The translations under genes were made by a program, and so were the position numbers. A stretch of DNA of 64,000 bases from Massilia sp. YIM B02443 (GTDB taxonomy: Bacteria; Pseudomonadota; Gammaproteobacteria; Burkholderiales; Burkholderiaceae_D). The notes beneath the pieces are model-generated. The model had not been told where the DNA came from. It ran no database searches and worked only from the letters and a program-made list of their open reading frames with translations. Below are positions 53,962-61,173 of the stretch, one piece after another; the first letter of the stretch is position 1; each line of letters begins with the position of its first letter. The DNA lies in the NCBI RefSeq assembly GCF_030411955.1, contig NZ_JASNRA010000003.1, positions 62,001 through 126,000 of the forward strand. Direction: 5' to 3'.

Positions 53962-55044
53962 ATGAACGAGCACGCAGACCAGCCGGCCACGCCGGGCAAC
54001 CAGCCCGGCATTCCTGGCCAGACCCTGCAGTCCCAACGCGAAGCGATGGGCTGGACCGTGGAGCAGGTGGCCGACCAGCTGAAGCTGGCGCCGCGCCAGG
54101 TGGTGGCGCTGGAAGCCGGCGATTACGCCTCCCTGCCGAGCCCGGCCGTGACGCGCGGCTTCGTGCGCGCCTACGCCAAGTTGCTGCGCATCGACGCCGC
54201 GCCGCTGGTGTCGATGATCGAGCTGAACATGCCGCCCGAAGCCCAGGCCGGCGCCAACGCCACCGCCAGCGCCAACCTGCGCCGCGAGCAGCGTCCGGCC
54301 GCGTTCTCGGAAACCCGGTTCCCGATCGGTGGCCGCCGCAACCGCTTGCCGCTGGGCTGGATCGCCGCCGTGGTGGTGGTGGCCGGCGCCGCCGTCGCCG
54401 CCTGGCAGCTGGGCGCGATTCCCGGCACCGCCCAGCATGACGCGGCCGAGGCCAACCACGTGCTGGAAAACCCGGTCGGCACGGCGGCGCCGAACGGCGT
54501 GGCCGTCCCGGCCGGCGCCACCTCGGGCGCAGCCCAGCAGGACCAGTTGCTCAATCCATCGGTGCCGCTGATCTCGGTGCCGTCGCCGGCCGGCGAGGGC
54601 GCGCCGTCGAACCCGGCCCCGGCCGCCGCTCCGGGCGCCACACCGGCCACCACCGCGCCTGCAGCCCCGGTCACCACGCCGGCGCCCACCCCGGCGCCCG
54701 GCGCGCCGACCGCCGCCACCGTGACCGCGAACGCGCCCGCCGTCGCGACGCCGGTGGCCGCCACCGCTCCTGCCGCCGCCGCTGCTGCGCCTGCCGCTGC
54801 CGGCGCCAACACCCTGGTGCTGAACGTGCGCGAAGATTCCTGGGTCCAGGTCGCGCCCGCCGGTGGCGGCCGTCCGCTGATCTCGCGCCTGGTGAAAGCC
54901 GGCAGCACCGAATCGATCGAACTGAACGGCCCGGCGACCCTGGTGGTCGGCGCCCCTGGCGGCGTGAGCGCAACCCTGCGCGGCGCCAATGTTCCGCTGC
55001 CGCAGCAGCCGGGCAAGACGGTCGCGCGCGTGGCACTGAAATAA
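53962..55044 (+). CDS. rodZ: RodZ-like helix-turn-helix membrane protein (DUF4115)
   Basis: A 360-residue protein with the RodZ layout: N-terminal HTH_25 domain ([54 protein letters not shown], about 25-80), a basic juxtamembrane region, one membrane helix ([18 protein letters not shown]), a long Ala/Pro/Thr-rich periplasmic linker, and a C-terminal DUF4115 domain ([40 protein letters not shown]). RodZ links MreB to the cell-wall elongation machinery. Start is ATG 53962 after AAGGACGAG. Confidence 0.9.
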
Positions 55045-55063
55045 ACAAGGGAATCCAAGCCTG

Positions 55064-56362
55064 ATGATCTCTCCGAACCAAGTCTCCGAGCTGACCCCGA
55101 CCGACGCCGCCATCCCGTCCGGCCCGCTGGCGCGCCGCGCCAGCCGCAAGGTCGCGGTGTCGCACGGCGCCCGCACCGTCTGGGTCGGCGGCGACGCCCC
55201 GGTGGTGGTGCAGTCGATGACCAACACCGACACCGCCGACGCGATCGGCACCGCAATCCAGGTCAAGGAACTGGCGCGCGCCGGTTCCGAGATCGTGCGC
55301 ATCACGGTCGACACCCCGGCCGCGGCGGCCGCCGTGCCGGCGATCCGCGAACAACTGGACCGCATGGAAGTCGACGTGCCGCTGGTCGGCGATTTCCACT
55401 ACAACGGCCACCTGCTGCTGCGCGACTATCCGGAATGCGCGCAGGCGCTGTCGAAATACCGGATCAATCCGGGCAACGTGGGCCAGGGCGCCAAGCGCGA
55501 CACCCAGTTCGCCCAGATGATCGAGATCGCCGCCAGGTACGACAAGCCGGTGCGCATCGGCGTCAACTGGGGCTCGCTCGACCAGTCGCTGCTGGCGCGC
55601 ATCATGGACCAGAACGCCGCGCGCGCGAATCCGTGGTCGGCCCAGGCCGTGATGTACGAAGCATTGATTACCTCGGCGATCGAGAATGCCGTGCGCGCCG
55701 AAGAAGTCGGCCTGGCGCGCGACAAGATCATCCTGTCGTGCAAGGTGTCCGGCGTGCAGGACTTGATCGCGGTCTACCGCGAGCTGGCGCGCCGCTGCGA
55801 TTACCCGCTGCACCTGGGCCTGACCGAGGCCGGCATGGGCAGCAAGGGCATCGTCGCCTCGACTGCGGCGCTGTCGGTGCTGTTGCAGGAAGGCATTGGC
55901 GACACCATCCGCATTTCGCTGACCCCGGAACCGGGCGGCGACCGCACCCGCGAAGTGGTGGTCGGCCAGGAAATCCTGCAGACCATGGGCCTGCGCAAGT
56001 TCACGCCGATGGTGATCGCTTGCCCGGGTTGCGGCCGTACTACCTCGACCGTGTTCCAGGAACTGGCCGACAACATCCAGAGTTTCCTGCGCGAGCAGAT
56101 GCCGGAGTGGAAGAAGACCTATCCGGGCGTGGAAGCGATGAACGTGGCCGTGATGGGCTGCATCGTCAACGGTCCAGGCGAATCGAAGCACGCCAACATC
56201 GGCATCAGCCTGCCCGGCACCGGCGAATCGCCGGCCGCGCCGGTGTTCGTCGACGGCCAGAAATTCGCGACCCTGCGCGGCGAGCGCATCGTCGACGAGT
56301 TCAAGACCATCGTGCTGGATTACGTGCAGAAAAACTATAGCCGCGAGGCGGCGACCCAATAA
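55064..56362 (+). CDS. ispG: 4-hydroxy-3-methylbut-2-enyl diphosphate synthase (flavodoxin)
   Basis: [4Fe-4S] enzyme of the MEP isoprenoid pathway, converting MEcPP to HMBPP. The 432-residue protein has the N-terminal TIM barrel ([37 protein letters not shown]) and the C-terminal ferredoxin-like part with cluster cysteines Cys320 and Cys323 in CPGCGRTT and Cys366 in [11 protein letters not shown]. Length fits the direct bacterial form. It lies between rodZ and hisS as usual; the gap to hisS is occupied by a pair of REP-like repeats. Confidence 0.97.
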
Positions 56363-56369
56363 TATGCAT

Positions 56370-56483
56370 CGTAGGGTTGACGGCTCCGCCGTCGACGCGG
56401 TGGTAGTTTGCAGCAAGATCATCCGGCGCGAAATCGGCGCCGGTCACTATCACCGCGTCGACGGCAGAGCCGTCGACCCTACG
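56370..56483. repeat. Inverted pair of REP-like palindromes between ispG and hisS
   Basis: Copy one 56370-56400 (CGTAGGGTTGACGGC...GCCGTCGACGCGG) and inverted copy two 56453-56483 (CCGCGTCGACGGC...GCCGTCGACCCTACG), separated by 52 bp. Same family as copies at 11.8 and 33.0 kb with two changed stem positions that are compensated on the other arm. Confidence 0.78.
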
Positions 56484-56502
56484 CGAATCACGAGATAACC
56501 CT

Positions 56503-57858
56503 ATGTCCAAACCAGAAAAAATCGTCGCCATCAAAGGCATGAACGACATCCTCCCGCAAGACGCACCGCTGTGGGAGCTGTTCGAGAACACCACCGAAAC
56601 GATCCTGAAAAGCTACGGCTACCAGAAGATCGTGACCCCGATCGTCGAGGAAACCCGCCTGTTCTCGCGCGCCATCGGCGCCGTGACCGACATCGTCGAA
56701 AAGGAAATGTATTCCTTCGAAGACTCGATGAACGGCGACCAATTGACCCTGCGCCCGGAAGGCACCGCCAGCGTGGTGCGCGCCGTGCTCGAACATAACC
56801 TGGTCTACGACGGCCCGCGCCGCCTGTGGTACAAGGGCCCGATGTTCCGCCACGAGCGTCCGCAGCGCGGCCGCTACCGCCAGTTCTTCCAGTTCGGCGC
56901 GGAAGCGGTCGGCTTCTCGGGCCCGGACATCGATGCCGAGCTGATCATGATGTGCCGCCGCCTGTGGGACGACCTCGGCATCCAGAACGTGCGCCTGGAG
57001 CTGAACTCGATCGGCAATGCCGAAGAGCGCGCCCGTCACCGTACCGACCTGATCGCCTACCTCGAGAAGCACGAAGACATCCTCGATGCCGAAGCCAAGC
57101 GCCGCCTGCACAGCAACCCGCTGCGCATCCTGGACACCAAGAACCCGGCGATGCAGGAGATGGTCAACGGCGCCCCGCGCCTGCTCGACTACCTGGGCGA
57201 AGAGTCGCTGGCGCACTTTAATGGCGTCAAGAACATCCTGGACCGCGCCGCCGTCCAGTACACCGTCAACCCGCGCCTGGTGCGCGGCCTGGATTACTAC
57301 AACCGCACCGTGTTCGAGTGGGTCACCGACGAGCTGGGTTCGCAGGGCACCATCTGCGCGGGCGGCCGCTACGATCCGCTGATCGAAACCTTCGGCGGCA
57401 AAGCCACGCCGGCGGTCGGCTTCGCGATGGGCATGGAGCGCATCATCGAGCTGATGAAGGCGATGGGCGAGCCGGCCCAGCCGAACCAGTGCGACGTCTA
57501 CATGGTGCACCAGGGCGAAGAAGCGCGCATGCAGGCCTTCATCCTGGCCGAGCGCATTCGGGATGCCGGCCTGGATGTTGTGTTACATTGCGCAACGCCG
57601 GCCGGCGCGGGCAGCTTCAAGAGCCAGATGAAGAAGGCCGACGGCAGCGGCGCGGCGTTCGCCGTGATCATCGGCGAGGACGAGATCGCCAACAACGTGG
57701 CGGCCATCAAGTCGATGCGCGGCGCGGCCGGCGAGCAGCAGCAGACCAGCGTGCCGTTCGAGGAAGTGGTCGATCACCTGGTCGACCAGATCATCAGCGG
57801 CGGCGGTCATGACCACGATCACGACCACGATCACGGCCACGTGCACTACCATCCGTAA
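56503..57858 (+). CDS. hisS: Histidine--tRNA ligase, with His-rich C-terminal tail
   Basis: Class II synthetase that charges tRNA-His. In 451 residues: motif 1 region ([18 protein letters not shown]), motif 2 ([22 protein letters not shown]), the HisA signature [15 protein letters not shown], and motif 3 ([15 protein letters not shown]), followed by the anticodon-binding domain. Unusual is the tail 433-451, [19 protein letters not shown], with eight His in nineteen residues, beyond the normal end [11 protein letters not shown]. The tail may bind metal, or make completion of translation sensitive to His-tRNA supply. Start ATG after ACGAGATAACC, weak. Confidence 0.96.
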
Positions 57859-57904
57859 TCAGTCCACAACAGCAATCCGAACCTTTCAATAAAAGAAGAC
57901 GCAC

Positions 57905-58588
57905 ATGGCATACGATCATCAAGAACAGGAACAGCTCGATTCCTTCAAGGCGTTCTGGTCGAAGTACGGCAGCATCATCACCTGGGTGCTGATCATCGCG
58001 CTCGGTTCCTACGCCGGTTTCAACTACTGGAAATCGCACAAGCGCAACCAGTCGGTCGAAGCCTCGGCCCTGTACGACGAGCTGCAGACTGCGATGATCG
58101 CCAACGACAATGCCAAGGTGCAGCGCGTGGCCGGCGACATCCGCGCCAAGTACGACGGCACCGCCTACGCCCAGATGGCGGCGTTCGGCGCCGCCAAGGC
58201 CGCCTTCGAAGCGAACGACCTGAAGACCGCCAGGGCGCAGCTGCAGTGGGTGGTGGACAACGGCAACGACGAATACAAGTCGATCGCCCGCATCCGCCTG
58301 GCCGGCGTGCTGCTGGACGAAAAAGCCTACGATGAAGCGCTGAAGGTGCTGAACGGTAACGTGCTGCCGCAGTTCGCCGCCGAAGCCAACGACCGCAAGG
58401 GCGACGTGCTGGTGGCGCAGAACAAGCTGAAGGAAGCGCGCGAAGCCTATGTCGCGGCGATCGCGGCCATGGATGCGAGCAATCCGGGCCGCCAGGTCGT
58501 GGTGATCAAGCTCGAGTCGATCGGCGGCACCGCCCCGGCCGACAAGAACGCGGAACAACAGAAGGCGGCGCAAAAGGCAGCCGCATAA
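57905..58588 (+). CDS. yfgM: YfgM family tetratricopeptide protein (ancillary SecYEG translocon subunit)
   Basis: A 227-residue inner-membrane protein. A short cytosolic N-terminus (DHQEQEQLDSFKAFWSKYG) leads to one membrane helix (SIITWVLIIALGSYAGFNYW, about 23-42) and a periplasmic TPR-like domain (YAQMAAFGAAKAAFEANDLKTARAQLQWVVDNG...YKSIARIRLAGVLLDEKAYDEAL). YfgM associates with SecYEG and PpiD and passes clients to periplasmic chaperones. Position hisS-yfgM-bamB-der is conserved. Start preceded by AAAAGAAGA. Confidence 0.92.
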   Translation: MAYDHQEQEQLDSFKAFWSKYGSIITWVLIIALGSYAGFNYWKSHKRNQSVEASALYDELQTAMIANDNAKVQRVAGDIRAKYDGTAYAQMAAFGAAKAAFEANDLKTARAQLQWVVDNGNDEYKSIARIRLAGVLLDEKAYDEALKVLNGNVLPQFAAEANDRKGDVLVAQNKLKEAREAYVAAIAAMDASNPGRQVVVIKLESIGGTAPADKNAEQQKAAQKAAA

Positions 58589-58605
58589 CAATCGCGCACG
58601 AGATG

Positions 58606-58637
58606 GCCCGCGCACGCCCTATGGCGGCGCGGGCTTT
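58606..58637 (+). other. Hairpin between yfgM and bamB
   Basis: Eight-bp stem GCCCGCGC/GCGCGGGC with a 13-nt loop and only TTT after it. It is probably a weak attenuator or an mRNA-processing structure inside the operon. Confidence 0.45.
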
Positions 58638-58672
58638 GCGTCCTCTATAGTCCAGGAACAAGGTAGAAGAAA

Positions 58673-59827
58673 ATGCGTATTAGCAGGAAGCTTGTTGGTG
58701 TCGGCGTACTGGCCCTGATGACGGGTTGCTCGACCCTGAGTTCGCTCAATCCGTTTGGCGACAAGGATAAGGCCGACCAGCCGGCCAAGCTGGTCGAACT
58801 GAAGGGCACGATGGCCGTGCGCACCGCATGGAAACTCGACATCGGCAAGTCGGAGGGCTACCAGTTCTCGCCGGCGCTGACCGGCAACACCCTGGTCGTG
58901 GCCAGCGGCGCCGGCCACATCGCGCGCGTGGAAGCGGCCGGCGGCAAGCAGCTGTGGCGCATCAACACCAAGGAAGAACTGAGCGCCGGCGTCGGCACCG
59001 ACGGCAACCTGATCGTGGTCGGCGGCGCCAAGGGCAAGCTGCTGGCCTTCGACATGGACGGCAAGCCGCTGTGGGACGTCCAGCTGTCGAGCGAGATCCT
59101 GTCGGCCCCGGTCGTGTCGCAAGGCATCGTGGTGGCGCGCTCGATCGACAACCGCATCGTCGGCTTCGACGCCAAGACCGGCGCCCAGAAGTGGATCGTG
59201 CAGAAGGTGGCGCCGCCGCTGACCCTGCGCACCGCGCCGGGCATGATCGTGGCCGGTACCGATGTGATCGTGGCCCAGCCGGGCGGCAAGCTGTCGGCAT
59301 TGATCCTGGCCACCGGCGCCCCGCGCTGGGACGTCGAGGTCGGCGTGGCGCGCGGCGCCACCGAACTGGAACGCGTGACCGACATCGGCGGCGCCCCGGT
59401 GCTGTTCGAGAACGACGTCTGCGCGGTGTCGTACCAGGGCCGCGTCGGCTGCTTCGATCTCGGCACCGGCTCGGCGCGCTGGACGCGCGAACTGTCGTCC
59501 AGCGTCGGCGTCGCCGTCGACCAGCGCTTCGTGTTCGCCCCGGACGACAAGGGCGGGCTGAACGCGTTCGCACGCGACACCGGCTCGAGCAGCTGGAAGA
59601 ACGACAAGCTGTCGTTCCGCCGCCTGTCGACGCCACTCTCTTATGGCCGCGCCGTCGCGGTCGGCGACTATGAAGGCTATGTGCACTTCCTGTCGCGCGA
59701 AGACGGCACTTTCCTGGCGCGCGCCGCCACCGATGGCAGCCCGATCGTGGGCACGCCGCTGGTGGCCGGCACGAACCTGATTTTTCAAACACAAAACGGA
59801 ACAGTGACCGCGATCGCGGTCGAATGA
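58673..59827 (+). CDS. bamB: Outer membrane protein assembly factor BamB
   Basis: Lipoprotein of the BAM complex that inserts beta-barrel proteins in the outer membrane. The 384-residue protein has lipobox LALMTGCSTL (Cys19) and an eight-bladed PQQ-type beta propeller, with repeated A-x-x-G-x-x-x-W units such as AAGGKQLWRI, DMDGKPLWDVQL, DAKTGAQKWIV, LATGAPRWDVE and DLGTGSARWTREL. Start ATG at 58673 after AAGGTAGAAG. Directly followed by der after 8 bp. Confidence 0.96.
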   Translation: MRISRKLVGVGVLALMTGCSTLSSLNPFGDKDKADQPAKLVELKGTMAVRTAWKLDIGKSEGYQFSPALTGNTLVVASGAGHIARVEAAGGKQLWRINTKEELSAGVGTDGNLIVVGGAKGKLLAFDMDGKPLWDVQLSSEILSAPVVSQGIVVARSIDNRIVGFDAKTGAQKWIVQKVAPPLTLRTAPGMIVAGTDVIVAQPGGKLSALILATGAPRWDVEVGVARGATELERVTDIGGAPVLFENDVCAVSYQGRVGCFDLGTGSARWTRELSSSVGVAVDQRFVFAPDDKGGLNAFARDTGSSSWKNDKLSFRRLSTPLSYGRAVAVGDYEGYVHFLSREDGTFLARAATDGSPIVGTPLVAGTNLIFQTQNGTVTAIAVE

Positions 59828-59835
59828 ATTAACAC

Positions 59836-61173
59836 ATGAAGCCGGTAATCGCACTCGTCGGTCGTCCCAATGTCGGGAAATCGACCCTATTCAACCGCCT
59901 GACCCGTTCGCGTGACGCGCTGGTGGCCGACCTTCCAGGCCTCACCCGCGACCGCCACTATGGCGAAGGCCGGATCGGCGAACGGCCGTTCCTGGTCATC
60001 GACACGGGCGGTTTCGAGCCGGTCGCCAAGGAAGGCATCATGCACGAAATGGCGCTGCAGACGCGCCAGGCCGTGGCCGAGGCCGACGTGGTCGTGTTCA
60101 TCGTGGACGGCCGCCAGGGCCTGACCCCGCATGACAAGACCATCACCGACTACCTGCGCAAGAGCGGCCGCAGCGTCATGCTGGTGGTCAACAAGTCGGA
60201 AGGCATGAAGTACACTTCCGTCACCGCCGACTTCTACGAACTCGGCATGGGCGACCCGTACGTGATCTCGGCCGCCCACGGCGACGGCGTGCACGACCTG
60301 GTCAACGAGGCGCTCGACATCGCGTTTGCCAGCCGCCCGAACGAGCCGGAAGAACTGGAACCGGCCGACCACGGCTTCAAGATCGCCATCGTCGGCCGCC
60401 CCAACGTCGGCAAGTCCACCCTGATCAACACCTTGGTCGGCGAGCAGCGCGTGATCGCCTTCGACATGCCGGGCACCACCCGCGACGCGATCGAAGTGCC
60501 GTTCGAGCGCGACGGCAAGAAGTTCACCCTGATCGACACCGCCGGCATCCGCCGCCGCGGCAAGATTTTCGAAGCCATCGAGAAGTTCTCGGTGGTCAAG
60601 ACCATGCAGTCGATCTCGGACGCCAATGTCGTGATCCTGCTGCTCGACGCCCAGCAGGACATCTCGGAGCAGGACGCCCACATCGCCGGCTTCATCCTGG
60701 AATCGGGCAGGGCGCTGGTGGTGGCTGTCAACAAGTGGGACGGCCTGCAGACCGACCAGCGCGACCAGGTCAAGAACGACCTCGACCGTAAACTCGATTT
60801 TCTCGGCTTCGCCAAGACCCACTTCGTGTCGGCACTGCGCGGCACCGGCATTACCCAACTGATGAAATCGGTCGAGTCGGCGTATGCCGCCGCCACCGCC
60901 AACCTGTCGACCCCGCGCCTGACGCGCGCGCTGCAGGAAGCGGTCGAGAAGCAGGAGCCGAAGCGCAAGGGCACCAGCCGTCCGAAGATGCGCTACGCCC
61001 ACCAGGGCGGCCAGAACCCGCCGATCATCGTCATCCACGGCAATGCGCTGGAAGGCATTACCGAACCGTACAAACGCTACCTGGAAAAGCATTTCCGCGA
61101 GACGTTCAACCTGGTCGGCACGCCATTGCGCATCGAACTGCGCAGCGGGAAAAATCCGTTCGCCAAGGATTGA
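59836..61173 (+). CDS. der: Ribosome biogenesis GTPase Der
   Basis: Essential GTPase of 50S subunit maturation with two tandem G domains and a KH-like C-terminus, 445 residues. First P-loop GRPNVGKS at about 8-15, with [12 protein letters not shown] and NKSEG; second P-loop GRPNVGKS at 187-194, with [23 protein letters not shown] and NKWDGL. KH-like part carries [32 protein letters not shown]. Conserved neighbour of bamB and hfq. Confidence 0.97.

Follow-up and report, generated by a model that had tools for sequence, protein, structure and literature searches.

Histidine-rich tails and loops that serve the storage or delivery of nickel or zinc are known from SlyD, HypB, and UreE. In Helicobacter pylori, the GroES protein HspA carries a C-terminal His/Cys tail that was reported to bind nickel in vitro, and deletion of this tail led to a lower nickel content of the cells and to a higher nickel sensitivity (PMC3856676). 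The deletion is viable, and two reports present this essential housekeeping protein as a nickel store (PMC3856676, PMC4671568). Similarly, mycobacterial GroEL1, a highly expressed chaperone, was described as co-purifying with His-tagged proteins and likely has a His-rich C-terminus (PMC3076238). Here, we describe a His-rich tail at the C-terminus of a histidyl-tRNA synthetase (HisRS). No report of such a tail was found in the open-licence literature, which was covered partially by titles and abstract openings, with subscription papers mostly outside this coverage.

The window, i.e., the whole stretch of 64,000 nt from Massilia sp. YIM B02443 that was analysed, harbors on its forward strand the gene hisS (56503..57858, with the stop codon at 57856-57858), encoding a HisRS of 451 aa. 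Comparison with TIGR00442 resulted in a match of 504.5 bits (cut-off 286.75) covering profile positions 2-404 of 406, and both the class II catalytic core (PF13393, 12-314, and PF00587) and the anticodon-binding domain (PF03129, 331-427) were found above their cut-offs, the Pfam hits on the ORF being tRNA-synt_His and HGTP_anticodon. It was the only HisRS above the TIGR00442 cut-off in its own genome, apart from which four weaker matches stayed below it. Among the best 80 of 345 matching loci, its product showed 87% and 91% identity to those of two other Massilia loci, L006 and L007, respectively. Between hisS and the upstream ORF, which we take to be ispG, we detected an inverted repeat of 38 nt with 92% complementary arms (56370-56407 and 56446-56483) and a spacer of 38 nt. 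This repeat was absent from 11 relatives examined, and loci L007 and L089 harbored other GC-rich inverted repeats at this place.

The last 19 residues of the enzyme (433-451; 57799..57855, forward strand) form a tail rich in His and Asp, eight of them being His, and eight of the 16 codons that precede the stop encode His. This tail follows the last helix predicted in an AlphaFold2 model (residues 419-432; 57757..57798, forward strand), which belongs to the aligned region common to relatives without a tail. The preliminary description had reported eight His in 19 residues beyond the family end, which translation of the ORF confirmed in regard to composition, and its placement beyond the family end was also right: the Pfam anticodon domain stops at residue 427, the helix at residue 432, and the alignment with 4e51, the nearest solved HisRS, reaches residue 433 only. 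The tail does lie in the stretch given there, 57801-57858, though its start had been set two bases late. Based on the core His frequency of the relatives (0.024), the naive chance of at least eight His in 19 residues is 6.6e-9, and in the core of the 127 tailed HisRS described below the maximum number of His per 16-residue window was four or fewer in all and two in 101. Residues 434-451 were modelled with pLDDT <50, suggesting that the tail is probably disordered and flexible; since the model is of middling quality (24 rows, mean pLDDT 76, pTM 0.68) and stretches with pLDDT <50 occur in the modelled core too, e.g., at residues 53-85, this value indicates disorder only weakly.

For the distribution of the tail, 145 genomes of the same family were surveyed, of which 143 revealed a HisRS match. 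After exclusion of the match in genome G007, which is cut at the contig end, 142 sequences were obtained, and 140 of these were aligned, including the window's own, leaving aside L227, which is truncated ahead of the C-terminus, and L226, a partial sequence with a His-rich end. A quick tree based on the core only, with the tail columns removed, without outgroup and drawn at its midpoint, showed poor support on 49 of 136 inner branches, and a branch with an SH-aLRT of 100 splits 129 HisRS from the 11 others. Calling a tail at three or more His/Cys, a threshold set after inspection of the tails, we identified tails of 7-25 residues in 127 of the 129 clade members, the two exceptions being L204, which ends with QAE, and L214, which has one Cys. 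The 11 HisRS outside the clade were without a tail apart from the weak case of L224 (LPHEHH), which reaches three His/Cys. The absence from close relatives, which the preliminary description had named as part of a refuting outcome, did not occur. The tail was also retained in L182, encoded by a genome of 1.7 Mb (G102) that is given as 99% complete.

Judged from its named members, the clade corresponds to the Oxalobacteraceae. Among the best 80 of 345 matches, for which HDHDHDHD served as one search pattern, tails were encoded by loci of Massilia (L006, L007, and L009) and Collimonas (L010), by the Oxalobacteraceae MAGs L011 and L012, and by a Pseudomonadota MAG (L008); L008 and L009 are apparently identical in sequence to L106 and L109. 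The 73 other loci of this set, with betaproteobacterial names (Paraburkholderia, Ralstonia, Cupriavidus, Polynucleobacter, Achromobacter, Nitrosomonas, and others) or vague MAG titles, all had two or fewer His/Cys in their last 20 residues. A sample from the whole phylum comprised 120 genomes, of which 119, including the own one, encoded a HisRS, leaving 118 others with a match. From these, 40 C-termini were picked by hand, four from the same order, 21 from the same class, and 15 from further away, and none of the 40 displayed a comparable tail: in 39, no more than two His/Cys were counted immediately before or beyond the end of the profile, and in L279 three His and one Cys were scattered through the last 23 residues. 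Presence throughout the clade and absence from the wider samples indicate that, as far as sampled, the tail was acquired in one clade.

The 127 tails had a mean length of 15.6 residues and contained three to nine His and Cys (mean 6.7) and about a quarter Asp/Glu, but almost no Lys/Arg. Compared with the core across all 140 aligned rows, His was enriched 15-fold in the tail (36.4% vs 2.4%), and Asp (20.1% vs 6.7%) and Cys (3.5% vs 1.1%) about threefold each, with Lys and Arg at 0.6% each. At the very end, 70 of the 127 tails carried H[VIL]HY[HKR] plus or minus one final residue, and at least three of the last six residues were His in 112. Cys was present in 47 tails, three of which consist in their ligands of one His and three Cys, with one further tail having three Cys and no His at all; Cys-led tails are exemplified by GDDHCCC, GDEHDCDCCG, ECGCGENHSSHDCCSH, and SCCLDGLCSVEDGQQGQ. 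On the core tree, the presence of Cys has switched at least nine times. The numbers of His and Cys were negatively correlated over 98 distinct tails (Spearman -0.61), a value that ignores kinship and that limited tail length alone favors, and among six independent pairs 2.0 went the same way, 0.7 the opposite way, and 3.3 revealed no difference; the rank correlation suggests a direct trade of His for Cys, which is not proven when relatedness is taken into account. Altogether, the comparison of the tails shows that their sequence diverges, while the ligand chemistry is kept. The most Cys-rich and His-poor tails were found in L175, L179, L184, and L208-L213. These HisRS come from genera g7 and g41, whose genomes measure about 1.9-2.6 Mb.

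Codons of the tail were compared in 39 disjoint pairs, taken from the 139 pairs left after filtering, using tails of equal length without gaps, which inflates pN between differing tail types. The tail revealed a pS of 0.44 and a pN of 0.10, corresponding to a ratio of 0.23, and at the His/Cys positions of these pairs 198 codons were identical, 46 differed synonymously, and 41 had changed the residue. Within the clade (38 pairs), the tail had a pN/pS of 0.18 and the core one of 0.10, so that the tail is less constrained; after three pairs with mixed tail types were dropped post hoc, the ratio was 0.09 in tail and core alike. His codon choice in the tails (CAC:CAT 437:348) was like that in the core (793:646). 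Mainly synonymous changes together with ordinary codon choice point to selection on the peptide, and this suggests that peptide chemistry, rather than the His codons, is the selected object. By these comparisons, the tail is a real, clade-wide, and selected feature.

A flexible tail that combines His, Cys, and Asp/Glu has the usual makings of a metal-binding peptide. We lean modestly towards the reading that the tail of HisRS is a metal-binding one acting as a cytosolic metal buffer and that it is ancestral in the clade. HisRS would have gained a short flexible tail before the clade diversified and retained it since. The three to nine His/Cys side chains of this tail, together with neighboring Asp/Glu, would coordinate a single ion or a few ions of a borderline divalent metal (Zn, Ni, Co, or Cu), and in this way the housekeeping enzyme might double as a metal buffer of the cytosol. 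Free histidine chelates Zn, Ni, Co, and Cu, and for this reason a buffer carried by the histidine-consuming enzyme may in addition shield its substrate and active site from metal. A metal store or sensor had been the second option of the preliminary description, and it agrees with the composition, the retention in the clade, and the exchange of His and Cys; metal binding itself, as likely, and likewise the choice of metal and a benefit by buffering or protection, are what we infer from the sequences.

A search of the own genome for HxHxHxHxH resulted in 51 matches (nine in the control), of which 38 fell into five clusters of at least four, three into a TGCCAC repeat, and ten were single. Apart from the one in hisS, the other four clusters, each of at least four overlapping matches, are located in proteins of the CbiX, CobW, COX1, and cation-efflux families, all of which we take to be metal-handling or metal-containing. 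Separately, it was observed that the CbiX-family protein (L258:30-1874) has a His-rich C-terminus of more than 50 residues and that the COX1-family protein, a cytochrome oxidase subunit I (L260:433-2046, reverse strand), has a His-rich N-terminus, HDHLHGHGHDHAHDHPH, before its COX1 domain. A search for the FUR family revealed two matches, and no metal-handling gene was recognised among the ORFs neighboring hisS on reading of the ORF list. Compensation for a missing SlyD tail was considered and rejected; in the own genome, to which this was confined, the five FKBP-domain C-termini read of six matches (the sixth being L307) had no His-rich tail.

Supply of nickel enzymes was considered as well. 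Using urease alpha (PF00449) and NiFe hydrogenase (PF00374) at an E-value of 1e-15, urease was identified in 87 and NiFe hydrogenase in 12 of the 145 genomes, and 45 of the 127 tailed genomes revealed matches to neither, a number to which gaps in the drafts may contribute. This renders a dedicated role of this kind unlikely; the tail does not simply feed nickel enzymes. By tail type, urease was present with 26 and absent with 21 of the Cys tails and present with 54 and absent with 26 of the other tails, which, as raw counts, gives no clear pattern.

The preliminary description had proposed self-sensing, in which histidine starvation would stall ribosomes at the 3' end of hisS; stalling on the His codons there would tune HisRS synthesis. 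The eight His codons among the last 16 speak for it, as do runs of three to five His in 23 of the 127 tails, and it recalls the leader of the his operon in enteric bacteria, where consecutive His codons are combined with an attenuator and likewise lie close to a histidine-related gene. However, neither a consecutive-His run nor an attenuator was found at the hisS locus of the window, as the His of its tail alternate, and the longest run was zero to two in 104 of the 127 tails. In addition, Cys replaces His in many relatives, up to the tail lacking His altogether, and the codon choice is ordinary. In the window, the 3' region of hisS folded no better than its shuffles (z 0.12), no terminator-like site was detected on the forward strand after hisS, the 46-nt gap to the next ORF (57859..57904, forward strand) shows no unusual fold, and a search of positions 54000-60000 against Rfam at the gathering score resulted in no match. 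The distance to the next gene, which is presumably yfgM-like, was measured in 54 of 55 loci tried; it varied between 11 and 141 nt and was only 11-12 nt in 15 of them, which also speaks against self-sensing. These short gaps may, as an observation of their own, mean translational coupling. Self-sensing by His codons was thus rejected and appears highly improbable. Neutral slippage of a CAYGAY repeat tolerated at the free C-terminus is also improbable as an explanation of the tail, although the related tails of L149 and L160 differ by whole DH units and slippage probably contributes to tail length. Retention in 127 of 129 members and constraint at the peptide level (pN/pS 0.18-0.23) are not explained by it, though such changes in length may be; moreover, the Cys-type tails are non-repetitive, and the tail was kept even in the genome of 1.7 Mb.

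The strongest remaining rivals act at the level of the protein. The tail could be an acidic, flexible one with another job, such as solubility, protein contact, a degradation signal, or a pH response, the His being incidental. In the outgroup, 15 of the nearest 24 HisRS and 22 of all 73 (among the best 80 of 345 loci) have at least three Asp/Glu in their last eight residues, which indicates that an acidic tail may be ancestral and that the His/Cys tail may have grown from one. However, replacement of His by Cys does not agree with pH sensing, and the 15-fold enrichment of His, kept at the peptide level, does not look incidental, so that we regard this reading as rather unlikely, though worth keeping in mind. 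Alternatively, HisRS might be metal-responsive: the tail would take up Zn, Ni, Co, or Cu, shield histidine, and fold onto the enzyme or tRNA upon metal binding, thereby changing the charging, so that the supply of His-tRNA follows the metal status or the pool of metal-bound histidine. The tail is, after all, carried by an enzyme with a substrate that is itself a chelator of these metals. Furthermore, copper sensitivity was reported for histidine auxotrophs of Brucella abortus, which links histidine to metal stress in another bacterium and does not concern HisRS directly (PMC13001215). On the other hand, length and sequence of the tail vary, as would be expected of a sink more than of a switch, and we consider a coupling of metal status to His-tRNA charging unlikely.

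Should the tail indeed bind metal, a whole clade would have an essential enzyme of translation moonlighting in metal handling, as GroES does in Helicobacter, and the tails would provide a natural and much-replicated case of ligand turnover between His and Cys in a fast-evolving metal-binding peptide. This would also offer a testable link from histidine use to metal homeostasis and, on the practical side, untagged HisRS of the clade could bind to metal-affinity resin.

Since metal tails on housekeeping proteins are already known, what is new here is the carrier, the clade, and the turnover of His and Cys that can be followed on a tree. SlyD, HypB, and UreE are dedicated metal-handling proteins, whereas the carrier of the tail described here is an aminoacyl-tRNA synthetase. 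With mycobacterial GroEL1, the HisRS tail shares the His-rich C-terminus, but protein and lineage differ. HspA is a co-chaperonin and not a tRNA synthetase, and no sequence relation between the two is claimed; nickel binding and control by NikR are known features of HspA. The HisRS tail is, like that of HspA, a His/Cys-rich C-terminal extension, and in the samples taken it is limited to one clade; in its way of working, its closest parallel would be the His/Cys tail with which Helicobacter HspA binds nickel.
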